A stretch of DNA of 64,000 nt from Bacteroidota bacterium (GTDB lineage Bacteria; Bacteroidota; Bacteroidia; Flavobacteriales; Flavobacteriaceae): NCBI GenBank assembly GCA_018267095.1, contig JAFDZC010000018.1, positions 62,001-126,000 of the forward strand. The letters run 5' to 3'. Below the pieces are notes generated by a model. The model searched no databases, was not told where the DNA came from, and saw nothing but the letters and a program-made list of their open reading frames with translations. The position numbers and the translations under genes are program-made. Shown here piece after piece: positions 652 through 49,909 of this stretch (within the stretch, counting starts at the first letter, position 1; each line of letters begins with the position of its first letter).

Positions 652-3600
652 ATGAAAAAAATTATTCTATTCTTTTTTGTTGCCTTGTACAGTCTCGTTG
701 GACAGGCTCAGCTAAACGAGGGATTTGAGGGTGCACCAACTACAGCTGACGCTTCGGGTGTTTGGGCGCTTACCTCAGGAAACTGGTTGGTCAGAGACAA
801 CAGAACCAATGTTGGTCAAAACTGGAAAAAGAACACAGTCGCTTTTCCGGCCTATCAAGGAACCGACTGCGCCTTTGTAGATCGTGAAAACACCGGTCAA
901 GGAGTTTTGGCCGAAGAGTGGCTCATTACCCCTCAGATTACGGGAATTCCAGCAAGTAGTCAATTCAGGTTTTTTACCAGACAAACCTTGTCTGGCGACA
1001 CCGGAACCAAGTATCAGATTCGCGTTTCATCATCTGCCGATCAAACAGACTTAAGTGCTTTTACGGTTTTGCAAGAGTACACAGAAACCGAGTTGAGCAC
1101 GCTAACGGCTGATCAGCTAGACTACGAAGAAAAAATCATTAATCTGACTTTTACAGGAGCCAGATATTTTGCGTTTGTTAAAGTATTCACCCAACCCGGT
1201 GCTGCTACTGGCGGAGATCGTTGGTTGGTTGACAATGTAAGAATTATTCAGAGATGTCCGGATCCGGCCAACTTATTGGCACCAACTATTACTTCGTCGA
1301 CTGCTACCTTAACATGGACTGCGCCAACAGGGATTAATGATTTCCAAATCATTTATGGCCCAACAGGTTTTGACCCCGAGGCAGTACCAGCTCAAACAGG
1401 TGTTGTAACAACCCCAACTTTTAATACGACCTCAACTCCCAGAACAACACAAATAACCGGTTTAACATCGGGACAAAATTATCAATATTATGTCCGTTCG
1501 GTTTGTCCGGAGAGCACCAGTATCTGGGTTGGTCCTTTTTTAATTCCCGTGCCGCCTCTAGGTTCTTTGTGTTCTGACCCAAGACCAATCACTACCTTGC
1601 CGTTTCAAGAAAACAGCAATACACTTATTTATGGAGATAATATTGCTCCAACAGGTGATACGCCCGGGAATTCATGTGGAACAACAGGAGCTTACCTAGC
1701 CAGTAATGATGTGGTTTATTCATATACGAACAGCGCTGCAACGGCTACTCTATTAGCGATTAGTATGAACCCTCAGGGAAGCACCAATACAGGGGTATTT
1801 GTTTATGGTTCTTGTGGTTCAATCGGAACAACTTGTTTGGGCGGTGTAGCCAATGCGAATGCTAGTATTAGAAACCTTACAGTGAATGTTGGTGCAGGAT
1901 CAACCGTATATATTGTATTATCATCAACCACAGCAACACCAAATTATCCTTATACGTTAATTGTTCAAGAAGCCAATTGTGTAGCTCCGATCAATTTATC
2001 AGTTCCATCATTTACAACCACAAGTGCTAACCTTTCTTGGGCTAACGGGACGGGTAGTATCTCAACAACATGGGAAGTAGCGGTGCAACTTGAAGGCGCA
2101 CTGATTCCTTCAGGAGCAGGTGTTTTGGCCGTGACCAACACAAATTTTCCTGTAACCGCACAACTAGACGGCACACCATTAGTTGCTGGAACTAAATATC
2201 AGTATTGGGTAAGAGCCGATTGTGGCAATGGATTGTTTAGTCCATGGTCAGGGCCGTTCTTATTCAACACAGATGTTTGCGAGGCCGTCAATAAATGTAA
2301 TTACACTTTTGTTTTGTCTACTTCAACCGGAAACGGATGGAAAGGCGCCATCATGCAAATCAAACAAGCGGGTATTGTGGTAGGAAGCATCGGCCCAACA
2401 TTTACTACAGGCTTAGGTCCGGTGAATGTTACCGTTCCGTTGTGTAATGCTTTACCATTTGATTTGGTATGGACAACCGCCGGAACTAATGCGAACTCAG
2501 TTCGTTTGTTGGTAAAAAACAGCTTTGACCAACCTATTTATTCTATAACCACAAACAGCGGAAGCCAAGTTGGCAATACTTTGCTCACTAAAATGGTGGA
2601 TTGTTTGAATCCGGAATGTCAACCACCTTCTGGAATTATTGTCCCAACAGCAACCATAGCAACTACTTCGGCGGTAATCAATTGGACGTCTTCTGGAATT
2701 CCAACTACAGATTGGGGTATTTATATTGTTCCTTTTGGGCAGCCAGCGCCAACAGGAACTACTCCTCCGACATATACTGTGCCGGGTTCAGTGAATCCGC
2801 CTACGTTTACAATTCCTGTAGGAACCTTAATTCCAGATACACAATATAGTGTTTATATTCAGTCAATCTGCTCTGTAAATAGTCCAAGTACATGGGCGGG
2901 TCCTACTAACTTTACAACAATTCCAACCTGTTTTAGACCGACAGCAGTAGCGGTTACAGCAGCTAGTATTACCACTACATCAGCTACTGTTACTTGGACC
3001 AACGGTCAACCAACAGACAACCACTGGGAAGTTTTGTTAATTCCTGCAGTGCTGACTCCACAAGGACCAACAGCACCACCAACACCAGGGGTTGTACCAC
3101 CTAGTGGAAATGGAGAATTGTTATTTGATGTAACTGCTCCGGGATCTCCGTTCACAGCTACAGGTTTACAGCCGGCAACCATATATTATGTATATGTAAG
3201 AACCGTTTGTTCACCATCTGATTCAAGTGTTTGGCAGCCAGCTACGACGCCAAGTTTTAATACTGTAACTTGTGACCCGGCTACCAAATGTAATTACAAG
3301 TTCGTATTGACTAACACTGCTGGAAACACATGGAATGGTGGTAGAATGCTGGTAAGACAAAATGGTATTACCGTTGCGACTTTAGGAGCTAACCAAATTA
3401 ACAATGCTGCTGGTGTTACCGTTGCCATGTGTCCGGGTGTTCCATATGATTTATACTGGAGCGTTGCGGGAACTTCACCTGATTTAATAGGTGTTACCGT
3501 TGTTAACCCATTTTTGGATGTTCTTTATACAAAATTACCGGGTCAAGGAGCTCCGCTTACAGTATTGTATAGTGGAACAGGAAATTGTACTCCTGCACCT

Positions 3601-40408: not shown

Positions 40409-40484
40409 AAGCTGATCCGGCTGTCCACTATATCTTTTGCGCTGAACCCCAGCACAAAAGGATGACGTTTCCATCCGGGCTAGC
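40409..40484. repeat. REP-like hairpin element
   Basis: Between pheS and the next gene. A strong imperfect hairpin (40432-40463) pairs ATCTTTTGCGCTG with CAGCACAAAAGGAT. It is flanked by CCGGCTGTCC (left) and CATCCGGGCTAG (right). From memory this layout resembles a short palindromic repeat found many times between genes in Flavobacterium genomes; only one copy is seen here. Confidence 0.65.
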
Positions 40485-40507
40485 AGAGTAACTTCTCATA
40501 GATTTGT

Positions 40508-40915: not shown

Positions 40916-41911
40916 TTAATCGAGCTTTTCGGTCAGTTTTTTAAAGACTTTTTTGGCTTCTTTTCCTTCGTATAAAATGGCGTGAACCGCATCAATGATC
41001 GGCGTTTTAGCACCGTATTGTTGGTTGAGTTCCCAAGCACTTTTGGCGGCGTAATAACCTTCGGCTACCATGCTCATTTCCATCATGGCGCTTTGCACGG
41101 TGTAGCCTTTTCCGATCATATTTCCGAACATACGATTGCGCGAAAACACCGAATAACCCGTCACGAGCAAATCGCCCAAATAAGCCGAATTGTTGATGTT
41201 GCGCTTCATTTTGTGCACTTTTCTGATGAATTTTTTCATCTCGCGAATCGCATTGCTCATCAGCACCGACTGAAAGTTGTCACCGTAGCCAATTCCGTGG
41301 GCTATTCCGGCGGCAATGGCGTAAATGTTTTTGAGCATCGCGGCATATTCGGTTCCAATCACATCATCAGTGATTTTGGCTTTGATGTAATTGCCCGATA
41401 AGCAATTGGCCACCATTTTAGCTTTATTAGCATCTTGACAAGCAATGGTCAGATAAGATAATCTTTCGAGCGCTACTTCTTCGGCATGGCACGGACCGGT
41501 AATGACACCGATATTTTCCCAAGGAATATTGTACGTTTTTTGAAAATGCTCCCCCACAATCAAACTAGTTTCCGGCACAATTCCTTTGATGGCCGAGAAA
41601 ACAACTTTGTCTTGCAAGTTTTGAGTTAATTTGCTCAATTCGCGATCTAAAAACGCCGATGGAATGGCAAAAATGATATAATCTGCATAAGCCACCGCCT
41701 CATTGATATCGCTGGTGAGTTTGAGTTTTTCAATGTTGAACTCAACTGAACTCAAATAGTTGGGATTGTGATGTTGGGTTTTGAGGTGGTTAATCGCTTC
41801 TTCATTACGCATATACCAAGCGATTTCAGGCAAATTGACACAAAGCATTTTGGCAATGGCCGTGGCCCAGCTTCCGCCACCGATGACGGCAAATTTTGGA
41901 TTTTTTGTCAT
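40916..41911 (-). CDS. gpsA: NAD(P)-dependent glycerol-3-phosphate dehydrogenase
   Basis: A 331-residue enzyme that reduces dihydroxyacetone phosphate to sn-glycerol 3-phosphate for phospholipid synthesis. The N-terminal Rossmann motif is VIGGGSWATAIAKML; the catalytic Lys lies in AMLKNIYAIAAGIAHGIGYGDN, and VITGPCHAEE is family-specific. The frame is open to a GTG at 41917, but the ATG at 41911 is the better start. A TATTTTTG (41996-42003 on the minus strand) may be its -7 element. Confidence 0.95.
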   Translation of the reverse strand: MTKNPKFAVIGGGSWATAIAKMLCVNLPEIAWYMRNEEAINHLKTQHHNPNYLSSVEFNIEKLKLTSDINEAVAYADYIIFAIPSAFLDRELSKLTQNLQDKVVFSAIKGIVPETSLIVGEHFQKTYNIPWENIGVITGPCHAEEVALERLSYLTIACQDANKAKMVANCLSGNYIKAKITDDVIGTEYAAMLKNIYAIAAGIAHGIGYGDNFQSVLMSNAIREMKKFIRKVHKMKRNINNSAYLGDLLVTGYSVFSRNRMFGNMIGKGYTVQSAMMEMSMVAEGYYAAKSAWELNQQYGAKTPIIDAVHAILYEGKEAKKVFKKLTEKLD

Positions 41912-42086
41912 GAACACTTTCTTTAGTCAGGAGCATAGAAAATTCTAGCCACTGTAATAAAACGCTCAAAATATTTTGGAGAGCAATTTTGCTTTCAAAA
42001 ATAACCAAAAAAACCGAACGGCAGTTATAACGCTAAACACTGAAACAGCACAATAATGAGGGTTTAAAAAAATTAACTTCTATTAT

Positions 42087-42117
42087 TTTGATATTCAACA
42101 CAATAGTTTTAAATTTG
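42087..42117 (+). promoter_or_regulatory. consensus promoter in front of a non-coding transcript
   Basis: TTTG (42087-42090), a spacer of 19 bp and TAAATTTG (42110-42117) match the Bacteroidetes consensus (TTTG, 19-21 bp, TAnnTTTG) perfectly. No coding start follows within 130 bp; instead a structured region and terminator follow. Transcription would begin near 42121-42124. Confidence 0.75.
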
Positions 42118-42120
42118 ATA

Positions 42121-42236
42121 CGTTAACTCAACAATAAAGTACAGTAAATGTTAACTGTGCTTCCACCATGAGTTAGTTACGTTTTGTTTTAATGTTGAAA
42201 AAGGCGTTCAAGAATCAGTTCCTGAACGCCTTTTGA
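42121..42236 (+). ncRNA. predicted structured small RNA, about 115 nt
   Basis: The region begins right after a consensus promoter and ends in an intrinsic terminator. The 5' part folds as a long hairpin: an outer stem joins 42120-42130 to 42169-42182 (7 bp, a 3-nt bulge, 4 bp), a symmetric 7/7 internal loop follows (42131-42137 and 42162-42168), then an 8-bp stem AGTACAGT/ACTGTGCT (42138-42145 with 42154-42161) with an 8-nt loop. A closing stem, central bubble and terminal stem is the layout of 6S RNA, and a flavobacterial 6S-like family is known; this identity is only a hypothesis. It contains no useful frame. Confidence 0.6.
42200..42236. terminator. bidirectional terminator between small RNA and YqhD-like gene
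   Basis: AAAGGCGTTCA (42200-42210) pairs with TGAACGCCTTT (42223-42233): 11 bp, loop of 12 bases, with T-runs on both strands. It can end the plus-strand small RNA and also the minus-strand alcohol dehydrogenase gene, whose stop is 20 bp away. Confidence 0.85.
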
Positions 42237-42255
42237 ATTTTTATAAAATTCTTTA

Positions 42256-43419
42256 TTAATAACTCATCTCAACAATTTCCCGCACTTTTTCGGGCGTGAT
42301 GTTTTGTTTTTCGCCCATGGCCAACCAACCGCGTTCTTCAAAACGTTTTACGATAAAATCGGCGGTGTTTTCAATGTTTTGTGCGTTTTCAGAAATACGG
42401 GTTTTCATGCCCATGGTATGGAAGAAGTCCACCGTTTTTTCAATGGCTTCACGTGCGATTTCTTCTTCGGTTCCGGTTAATTTCCAAATGCGATTGCCGT
42501 ATTGCGCAAGTTTTTCTTTTTTGGTATCAAACATCACGCGGTATAAATTCGGGCCGATGATGGCCAAAGTGCGCGCGTGGTCAATTTCGTATAAAGCCGT
42601 GAGTTCGTGACCAATCATATGCGTAGCCCAATCGGTTGGAACGCCTTTCTGAATCAGGCCATTGAGCGCCATCGTGGCTGACCAAACAAAATTCGACGCC
42701 AACTTATAATCGGTAGGATTTTCTACTACATCCGGGCCGATTTCAATGAGTGTTTTTAAAATACCTTCAGCGATTCGATCTTGCAACAAAGCCTCGTGCG
42801 GATATGTCAAATATTGCTCCATGACATGCGTAAAAGCATCCACCACGCCGTTTTGCAGTTGTCTTTTAGGCAAAGAAGCGATTACGGTTGGGTCAACAAT
42901 CGAAAACTTCGGAAAAAGAGCGCTACCGCCTAGGGTGAGTTTTTCTTGTGTAGCTTCAATAGTAACCACCGCGCCCGAATTCATCTCAGAACCGGTCGCC
43001 GGCAAAGTCAAAACGGTTCCAAACGGAACACAAACAGAAGCATCTTTAAACAAAATACGTTTTCTAAGGATGTCCGCAGCATCACCCGAATAATGAACAG
43101 CCGCTGAGATAAATTTCACACCATCAATAACGCTTCCGCCACCAACAGCCAAGACGAAACCAATGTTTTGTGCACGGATAATTTCTACGGCTTTCATCAA
43201 AGTTTCATAACGCGGATTGGGTTCAATGCCGCCAAACTCAACAATTTCATAACCGGACAAAGCGGTTTTTACTTGATCGTATACGCCATTTTTAAAAATA
43301 CTTCCGCCCCCATATGCCAAAAGAATTTTGGTGTTTTTAGGAGTAAGTTCAGAGAGTTTTGAGATTTGGCCTTTACCAAAAATGTAATTGACCGGATTGT
43401 ATAATTCAAAATTATTCAT
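42256..43419 (-). CDS. iron-containing alcohol dehydrogenase (YqhD-like)
   Basis: A 387-residue group III alcohol dehydrogenase. NAD(P)-binding region LAYGGGSIFKNGVYDQV and VLAVGGGSVIDGVKFI, the family TLPATGSEMNSGAVVT, and metal ligands in MIGHELTALYEIDHARTLAI. Closest in motif pattern to YqhD/butanol dehydrogenase, NADPH-dependent aldehyde reductases that remove short-chain aldehydes. Single gene with a terminator after it. Confidence 0.92.
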   Translation of the reverse strand: MNNFELYNPVNYIFGKGQISKLSELTPKNTKILLAYGGGSIFKNGVYDQVKTALSGYEIVEFGGIEPNPRYETLMKAVEIIRAQNIGFVLAVGGGSVIDGVKFISAAVHYSGDAADILRKRILFKDASVCVPFGTVLTLPATGSEMNSGAVVTIEATQEKLTLGGSALFPKFSIVDPTVIASLPKRQLQNGVVDAFTHVMEQYLTYPHEALLQDRIAEGILKTLIEIGPDVVENPTDYKLASNFVWSATMALNGLIQKGVPTDWATHMIGHELTALYEIDHARTLAIIGPNLYRVMFDTKKEKLAQYGNRIWKLTGTEEEIAREAIEKTVDFFHTMGMKTRISENAQNIENTADFIVKRFEERGWLAMGEKQNITPEKVREIVEMSY

Positions 43420-48766: not shown

Positions 48767-49909
48767 ATGAAATTCAATACCAAAACCATACACGGCGGAC
48801 AACACCACGAGCCGGTCACCGGAGCGGTCATGCCCCCGGTTTTTCAGACTTCAACTTATGCGCAAGTAACACCCGGAAAACCTGTTGGGGATTATGAATA
48901 CAGTCGTGCCGCAAATCCGACGCGACAAGCTTTAGAAGACGCTTTGGCCTCGATTGAGAACGGTGCGCGCGGTTTGGCTTTTTCATCCGGATTAGCCGCT
49001 ACCGACTGTTTGTTGCGCATGTTTAAAGCCGGCGATGAAGTCATTGCGATGGATGATTTGTACGGAGGAACGTATCGTTTGTTTACGCGTTTGTACCAAG
49101 ACAGCGGCATCAAGTTTCACTTTGTGGACATGAACGATTTTGAGAAATTTCAGTCGCTCATCAATCAAAACACAAAACTGGTTTGGGTCGAAACTCCGAC
49201 CAATCCGCTGATGAAATTGGCCGATATTGCAGAAATTGCTAAAATTACTAAAAAGCACAACATTCTATTTGCGGTTGACAACACCTTTGCCACACCTTAT
49301 TTGCAACGCCCATTAGACTTAGGCGCCGACATTGTGATGCATTCAGCTACCAAATATTTGGGCGGACACAGCGATGTCATTGCCGGAGCTTTGATCATTA
49401 AAGACAAAGAACTCGGCGATGAATTGCACTTCAAACAATTCGCCACCGGAGGAACGCTTGGGCCGATGGATAGCTATTTGGTTTTGCGCGGCATCAAAAC
49501 ACTGCATTTGCGTGTGCAGCGTCATTGTGAGAACGGAGAGAAAGTTGTTGCTTTTTTGAGCAGTCATCCTAAAATTGCACAAGTATATTATCCTGGCTTG
49601 GCGTCACATCCTTTTCACGAAGTAGCCAAAAAGCAAATGAGTGGTTTTGGCGGAATGGTTTCGTTTACGTTTAAATCCGGTTTGAAAAAAGATGCTACGG
49701 ATTTCCTTGAAAAACTCAAAGTTTTCACCTTGGCCGAGTCGTTGGGCGGCGTTGAATCTTTGGCCAACCACCCAGCACTGATGACGCATGCTTCTATTCC
49801 TGAAGACAAACGAAAAGAAATCGGAATCACCGATGATTTGGTTCGATTGAGCGTCGGAATTGAAGATGCTGATGATTTAATTGAAGACTTAAAACAAGCA
49901 TTATTGTAA
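48767..49909 (+). CDS. Cys/Met metabolism PLP-dependent enzyme (cystathionine gamma-synthase/lyase type)
   Basis: A 380-residue gamma-family PLP enzyme. PLP-binding Lys is in HSATKYLGGHSDV; AFSSGLAATDCLLR and VETPTNPLMKLADI are cofactor-contact stretches; TLAESLGGVESLANHPALMTH binds substrate. Both cystathionine gamma-synthase and gamma-lyase have this motif set, so the direction of the reaction is not decided. Single gene between divergent lipoprotein gene and a terminator. Confidence 0.94.
   Translation: MKFNTKTIHGGQHHEPVTGAVMPPVFQTSTYAQVTPGKPVGDYEYSRAANPTRQALEDALASIENGARGLAFSSGLAATDCLLRMFKAGDEVIAMDDLYGGTYRLFTRLYQDSGIKFHFVDMNDFEKFQSLINQNTKLVWVETPTNPLMKLADIAEIAKITKKHNILFAVDNTFATPYLQRPLDLGADIVMHSATKYLGGHSDVIAGALIIKDKELGDELHFKQFATGGTLGPMDSYLVLRGIKTLHLRVQRHCENGEKVVAFLSSHPKIAQVYYPGLASHPFHEVAKKQMSGFGGMVSFTFKSGLKKDATDFLEKLKVFTLAESLGGVESLANHPALMTHASIPEDKRKEIGITDDLVRLSVGIEDADDLIEDLKQALL

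Follow-up and report, generated by a model that had tools for sequence, protein, structure and literature searches.

A probable orthologue of the small RNA Rfp11 in the gpsA-alcohol dehydrogenase spacer of a Flavobacterium genome, with two overlapping predicted promoters

Rfp11 (THC0290_N_0107) is a transcript detected in the fish pathogen Flavobacterium psychrophilum (strain OSU THCO2-90), where it starts at position 182564 from a promoter of the SM6 type (PMC9723704). It is placed among the RNAs that are conserved in other species and have a strong predicted structure, and the portion of that report available to us assigns it no function (PMC9723704). The SM6 motif of F. psychrophilum, whose hallmark is a CGT box at -10, is presumed to be the target of an ECF sigma factor and is strongly induced when nutrients are scarce, as in freshwater (PMC9723704).

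The window, by which we mean the whole 64,000-nucleotide (nt) stretch of DNA analyzed here, contains a spacer (positions 41918 to 42255) bounded on one side by gpsA (40916 to 41917, minus strand) and on the other by a gene for an iron-containing alcohol dehydrogenase (42256 to 43419, minus strand). In this spacer, the first-pass annotation had placed a structured small RNA of about 115 nt, and direct reading together with folding of positions 42087 to 42236 confirmed the promoter-hairpin-terminator layout on the plus strand. Taking the first transcribed nucleotide to lie about 5 nt downstream of the -7 box sets the predicted start at about 42122, as against about 42121 in the original proposal, and with an end at the terminator the predicted transcript is 115 nt long (42122 to 42237), the same features, the fold and a covariance model of the family (R1, below) delimiting it. 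The start, length and growth condition of this RNA are predictions. The segment from 42119 to 42237 folds at -38.3 kcal/mol (z = -6.3, terminator included), and none of 200 shuffled sequences folded equally well; the hairpin part of the window copy alone has a z-score of -4.6.

Relatives of the element occur throughout the genus. When the whole spacer was used as a blastn query, 17 of 60 genomes, including its own, gave matches, although some of these (e.g., L010, L012 and L017) were unrelated and were set aside. A stricter pattern, composed of the parts that 12 aligned sequences have in common, was found in 63 of 249 genus genomes, at one place in each, and its reversed control in none. The covariance model R1, built from 31 sequences including that of the window, matches 281 of the 397 genus genomes with completeness of at least 90%, a count that includes the window's own genome and the sources of the model. 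Among 395 genomes of the family Flavobacteriaceae, R1 gave five matches, four of them in the same genus (the window's genome included) and one in another genus. The match in the other genus (G549; L269, approximately 1500 to 1630, minus strand) is weak (E = 1.4e-4); ACAATA-N15-CGTT is present there, as is GAGTTAGTTA, twice, followed by a different terminator, and the neighboring genes differ. Rfam has no match at the element in the window, and at E up to 10 the spacer gives only matches far below threshold. These weak matches (RsaJ, mir-4850, ctRNA_pT181, BTnc049 and others) all lie far below the cutoffs and were dismissed as chance or terminator matches.

The gene order around the element is largely constant. 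Across 94 different elements, crude calls of open reading frames (ORFs) gave gpsA as the nearest upstream gene in 79 and an alcohol dehydrogenase gene as the nearest downstream one in 81. In 13 of the 94 elements, a count that sets aside one spurious 76-aa call, the gene upstream lies on the plus strand, and here ACAATA-N15-CGTT stands before the element in 12 cases and GCAATA-N15-CGTT in one. The retention of this motif where the upstream gene differs indicates that the motif is part of the element rather than of gpsA.

The closest relatives of the window copy were collected from 398 genus genomes with the block TTAGTTACGTTTTGTTTTAATGTTGA, allowing up to three mismatches. Of six matches, one with three mismatches (L259) was dropped because it lay in Gly-rich, coding-like DNA without the promoter, and the remaining five genomes (G000, G305, G143, G248 and G337, G000 being the window's own) constitute what we call the window's subclade.

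The element of F. psychrophilum DSM 3660 (G457:C3:6443-6561) is divergent but is recognized by R1 (58.4 bits, E = 4.2e-7), and it too lies between gpsA and the alcohol dehydrogenase gene. In strain THCO2-90, the locus tag THC0290_0143 stands for a MoxR ATPase, _0149 for a probable alcohol dehydrogenase and _0164 for sodA, according to the part of that source available to us (PMC5682007). When genes are counted from the alcohol dehydrogenase gene, the MoxR-like gene falls at 0143 and superoxide dismutase at 0165, or at 0164 if a doubtful 76-aa frame is subtracted; the MoxR ATPase was named by eye (no NCBIfam family at 1e-10) and superoxide dismutase by motif. All three anchor genes fit the count, which places the element between THC0290_0148 and _0149. 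Interpolation between two anchors given in Table 2 of the Rfp11 report (_0031 at 49622 and _0297 at 356002; PMC9723704) puts the _0148/_0149 boundary at about 185 kb, within about 3 kb of the published start of Rfp11. Judged by the order of the genes, the interpolated position and the type of promoter, the RNA of the window is very probably the orthologue of Rfp11, so the suggestion that it might be a new RNA finds, for the most part, no support. Rfp18 had been our first idea for the published counterpart and was given up for Rfp11 on the strength of the SM6 table (PMC9723704).

The promoter singled out by the first-pass annotation is present exactly as claimed, with TTTG at 42087 to 42090, a gap of 19 bp and TAAATTTG at 42110 to 42117, all on the plus strand. 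Taken alone, this pattern of the housekeeping (sigma-A) type is not beyond chance: it occurs at 2 sites in the 64 kb, against 0.83 expected, and 22 of 100 shuffled sequences contain two or more. It gains weight because TTTG-N19-TAnnTTTG is kept in all five genomes of the window's subclade. A TAnnTTTG box just before the CGTT position was found in only 4 of 171 elements, all from this subclade (its fifth member, L260 of G337, is outside the set of 171), indicating that the predicted housekeeping promoter is a conserved subclade feature superimposed on a promoter of the family.

The promoter common to the wider family, missed by the first-pass annotation, emerged from the alignment of relatives. 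It is a candidate ECF-sigma (SM6-like) promoter, ACAATA-N15-CGTT, that spans 42100 to 42124 on the plus strand and overlaps the housekeeping one. In the first 12 aligned relatives, the spacing between ACAATA and CGTT is 15 nt in 11 cases and 16 nt in one, with GCAATA and ACAATG each replacing ACAATA once. Over the set of 171 elements, which was partly selected by means of the ACAATA/CGTT pattern, the exact motif ACAATA-N15-CGTT is present in 108 and CAAT-N15..17-CGTT in 145. About 820 kb of the window's own genome contains the exact motif at two sites, the element and one site within a gene. Within the subclade, CGTT is kept in four of five members (not in G143) and ACAATA also in four (not in G337). 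In the sister species G143 (L218 and L262), CATA stands in place of CGTT and the housekeeping -7 box is retained, as if its ECF promoter were in the process of being lost.

In the genome of F. psychrophilum, ACAAT-N16-CGTT is not enriched, with 30 sites against 38 for the reversed pattern, and a crude frame test assigned 25 of the 30 sites to the interior of open frames longer than 170 codons. The five sites outside such frames comprise that of the Rfp11-type element, three that precede gldN (by 31 nt), the longest gldJ frame (by 84 nt) and the gene for a murein transglycosylase D (by 66 nt), and one for which no downstream gene start was called. Two others, which precede rmlB by 93 nt and gldK by 207 nt, are within open frames. 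Both gldN and rmlB are listed in the selected SM6 table (PMC9723704), and of the 10 other entries in that table, they are the only ones recognized among the pattern sites. The sites before gldJ, gldK and the murein transglycosylase D gene are represented by L171, L162 and L175; gldJ and gldK do not appear by name in the selected SM6 table of that source (PMC9723704). The usual promoter of the family is very probably of the SM6 (ECF-sigma) type, which some genes for gliding and type IX secretion also have, and the window's subclade has very probably gained a housekeeping promoter on top of it.

The 5' part of the predicted RNA (42123 to 42176, plus strand) folds as a stem, an internal loop and a second stem. 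The stem-bubble-stem form and the 8-nt terminal loop were as originally described, but the dimensions were not: the outer helix has 8 pairs (7 plus a U-G pair) in place of 11, the internal loop is 6/6 in place of 7/7, and the inner stem has 9 pairs in place of 8. In the fold of 42119 to 42237, four more pairs (ACGT/ACGT) form only with a 3-nt bulge and lie partly before the predicted +1. The architecture is the same in all five subclade members, whose predicted RNAs are 114 to 116 nt long, in agreement with the length first proposed, while pairwise identity within the hairpin part is only 48 to 63%. The z-scores of the five hairpins are -4.6, -4.0, -2.7, -1.2 and -1.3 (combined z = -6.2), the last two not being individually significant; five short control pieces from upstream gave one value of -3.9 and others between -0.8 and 0.3.

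When the hairpin halves of the five members were exchanged, a molecule's own halves folded at a mean of -16.1 kcal/mol and foreign halves at -9.1 kcal/mol, and only 1 of 20 foreign pairs reached the value of the weakest own pair. By this folding measure, the two halves of the hairpin co-evolve within the window's subclade. Pair counts in a fixed register were not clearly above those of shuffles: 65.5% paired versus 63.8% (173 of 500 shuffles as high), and there were 6 double-change pairs versus 3.9 (77 of 500 as high). In the folds of two members, the register of the outer helix is off by one base. Over the family as a whole, the variable 5' region is not generally more structured than chance would give (median z = -0.23 over 153 elements), indicating that the hairpin belongs to some clades and that the core of the family consists of the terminator and the block preceding it.

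This core is evident in the alignment, where a variable stretch is followed, in most of the 12 aligned sequences, by a GAGTTAGTTAG-TTTTGTTTTAGTATTTT-like block that runs into AAAAGGCGTTC...GAACGCCTTTT. In the window, the conserved non-terminator part is the GAGTTAGTTACGTTTTGTTTTAATGTTGA segment (42168 to 42198, plus strand), the beginning of which doubles as the 3' arm of the outer helix; we infer that this segment is a base-pairing region. The terminator that follows, AAAAAGGCGTTC-loop-GAACGCCTTTT, is present, as the first-pass annotation had proposed, at approximately 42199 to 42236. A simple scan of the region for terminators, whose rule demands a loop of 3 to 8 nt and a run of T, returned none. 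The hairpin folds on both strands, so that it could end the alcohol dehydrogenase transcript on the minus strand as well as the small RNA on the plus strand. Among 137 distinct hairpins of this kind, 73 are more stable in their minus-strand form and 48 in their plus-strand form, with 16 equal.

The arms of the terminator partly co-vary. The arm pairs in the 137 hairpins include GTTC/GAAC (70), GTCT/AGAC (9), GTTT/AAAC (3), ACTC/GAGT (3) and ATTC/GAAT (2), and in 22 of the 137 a GGCGTCC left arm faces GAACGCC (GTCC/GAAC), a combination that is mismatched in the plus-strand hairpin and forms a G-U pair in its minus-strand counterpart. In all five subclade members, a 14-codon frame (42190 to 42237 in the window, plus strand; read by eye) runs from ATGTTGAAAAAG, or ATGTTGAGAAAG in two of them, through the terminator, and this is probably a by-product of the palindrome.

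The existence of relatives across the genus, mostly in the same synteny and of equal predicted length, and the preservation of the subclade hairpin despite sequence change argue for a small RNA. The comparison supports the original proposal that a structured small RNA is encoded here together with a promoter and a terminator of its own, and it is very probable that a genuine small RNA gene, the window's counterpart of Rfp11, lies in the spacer. From the promoter motifs, hairpin, terminator, conservation and orthologous position, all of which the comparison of sequences shows, we assemble an explanation to which we give a probability of roughly 0.83, namely, that the spacer encodes an Rfp11 orthologue, an independent structured small RNA that has the SM6-type promoter of its family and the housekeeping box of its subclade and that most likely acts in trans. 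Under this explanation, the RNA of the family would be transcribed from the SM6-type ACAATA-N15-CGTT promoter and induced when nutrients are poor, as in F. psychrophilum. The housekeeping TTTG-N19-TAnnTTTG on the same DNA implies that, in the subclade, ordinary growth probably yields the RNA as well; both transcription in the window's species and the condition for it are what we infer from the motifs. Transcription would stop about 115 nt on, at the terminator common to the convergent alcohol dehydrogenase gene, the 5' hairpin would stabilize the RNA, and pairing with target mRNAs would fall to the conserved GUUAGUUA...UUUUGUUUU segment. Action in trans by such base pairing is probable; a target test over the starts of 693 genes, roughly a quarter of the genome, yielded no excess over 60 shuffled seeds.

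Several other readings assign the same conserved DNA a different role. The spacer could encode no RNA of its own and be regulatory DNA only, combining the gpsA promoter region with the alcohol dehydrogenase gene's 3' terminator. The gpsA start is 181 bp from the element, on the opposite strand, and the terminator does fold on the minus strand, more stably in 73 of the 137 hairpins, but this reading leaves the conserved segment beyond the alcohol dehydrogenase terminator unexplained and is opposed by the motif kept in the 13 elements with a plus-strand upstream gene, by the co-evolving hairpin halves of the subclade and by the detection of Rfp11 as a transcript in F. psychrophilum, according to the part of that report available to us (PMC9723704), all of which make it highly improbable. 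Convergent orientation in 81 of the 94 elements, based on the crude ORF calls, would also suit an RNA that acts in cis, as an antisense RNA or a convergent-transcription regulator of the alcohol dehydrogenase gene. Such a role is improbable, as the predicted RNA stops at the common terminator, short of the coding sequence, and elements persist beside other downstream genes (e.g., nadD, the nearest called gene in L013 and L108). A 6S-type RNA, which would mimic an open promoter and bind RNA polymerase, had been considered in the first-pass annotation because of the stem-bubble-stem shape, and 6S-Flavo RNA is indeed a stem with a central bulge. The single 6S-Flavo match in the window's own genome (3.13 Mb in 19 contigs) is, however, on another contig (G000:C14:153804-153912; 70.5 bits, E = 1.6e-11, below the curated cutoff of 85), covariance searches with the 6S families found nothing at 41900 to 42300 even at E up to 10, and the hairpin is not general to the family, the pre-terminator segment being conserved instead, so that a 6S-type RNA is scarcely credible here.

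A reading of a different sort adds a peptide to the RNA. In a derived clade (L053, L003 and 71 other elements), the conserved block can be read as a possible ORF, mostly of 12 to 15 codons and of the type M..IELVSFVLVF, as in MNLAKIELVSFVLVF and MRIELVSFVLVL. The block is present in 113 of the 171 elements (58 are without it), and 73 of these 113 have an in-frame ATG and stop. Several features are those of a translated frame: in 71 of the 73 frame-bearing elements, the stop precedes AAAAGGC by 1 to 4 nt, the stop codon alternates between TAA and TGA, ATGs in the 30 nt upstream number 77 in frame versus 9 and 1 in the other frames, and summed deviations fall mostly at third codon positions (59 versus 16 and 25). 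Against this, the third-position excess also appears in block-bearing relatives without the frame (98 versus 44 and 52), so that constraint at the RNA level could explain it, and 40 of the 113 elements lack the frame. The rows also share ancestry; on a tree of 146 rows, the state changes between frame and no frame at least 12 times (the tree kept 146 of 172 rows, those without an alcohol dehydrogenase stretch of at least 80 residues being left out, and L219 and L260 are absent from it). As read from the sequences, neither the window's subclade nor F. psychrophilum has the ORF. A dual-function RNA, in which the conserved 3' segment is also translated into a peptide of 12 to 15 residues in part of the genus and the lineage of the window is RNA-only, is accordingly a tentative suggestion, on balance unlikely. 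A broader version treats Rfp11 as a switching, dual-function locus (an RNA that acts in trans under ECF control in much of the genus, carries a translated peptide in the derived clade, was rewired to housekeeping control in the window's clade and lost CGTT in one species of that clade) and is speculative and rather doubtful.

With the independent small RNA as the preferred reading, Rfp11 of F. psychrophilum gains a genus-wide comparative picture. An RNA that has no Rfam match is yet found by a covariance model in most Flavobacterium genomes analyzed, mostly at one locus, and its relatives display an apparent change of promoter within a genus. The model also makes the function of the RNA testable in tractable laboratory species.

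The element can be set beside four described RNAs. Flavo-1 RNA (RF01705) is an Rfam family present in the window (40410 to 40485, minus strand; 69.5 bits, E = 3.4e-13), where it sits between pheS and a 135-aa ORF without an NCBIfam or Pfam match at E = 0.001, and it has no match at the element. In two of the five subclade genomes (L219, 962 to 1066, and L260, 1727 to 1810, both minus strand), a Flavo-1 RNA precedes the Rfp11-type element by no more than a few hundred bases, on the same strand; none was found at the element of the window. 6S-Flavo RNA (RF01685) resembles the candidate in being an independent RNA with a bulged stem and differs in having a separate locus in the same genome. Rfp18 is likewise a Flavobacterium small RNA for which base pairing to mRNAs has been proposed, but it is separately named, and its predicted pairing region, as described in the part of the source available to us, is the third stem-loop and not a segment preceding the terminator (PMC9723704). 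Rfp11 has, like the window copy, a place in the gpsA/alcohol dehydrogenase spacer (by gene count and interpolation) and a CGT-box promoter. It has been published as an independent transcript, conserved and with a strong predicted structure; the predicted RNA of the window differs from it in an added promoter of the sigma-A type and in a 5' hairpin of its own.
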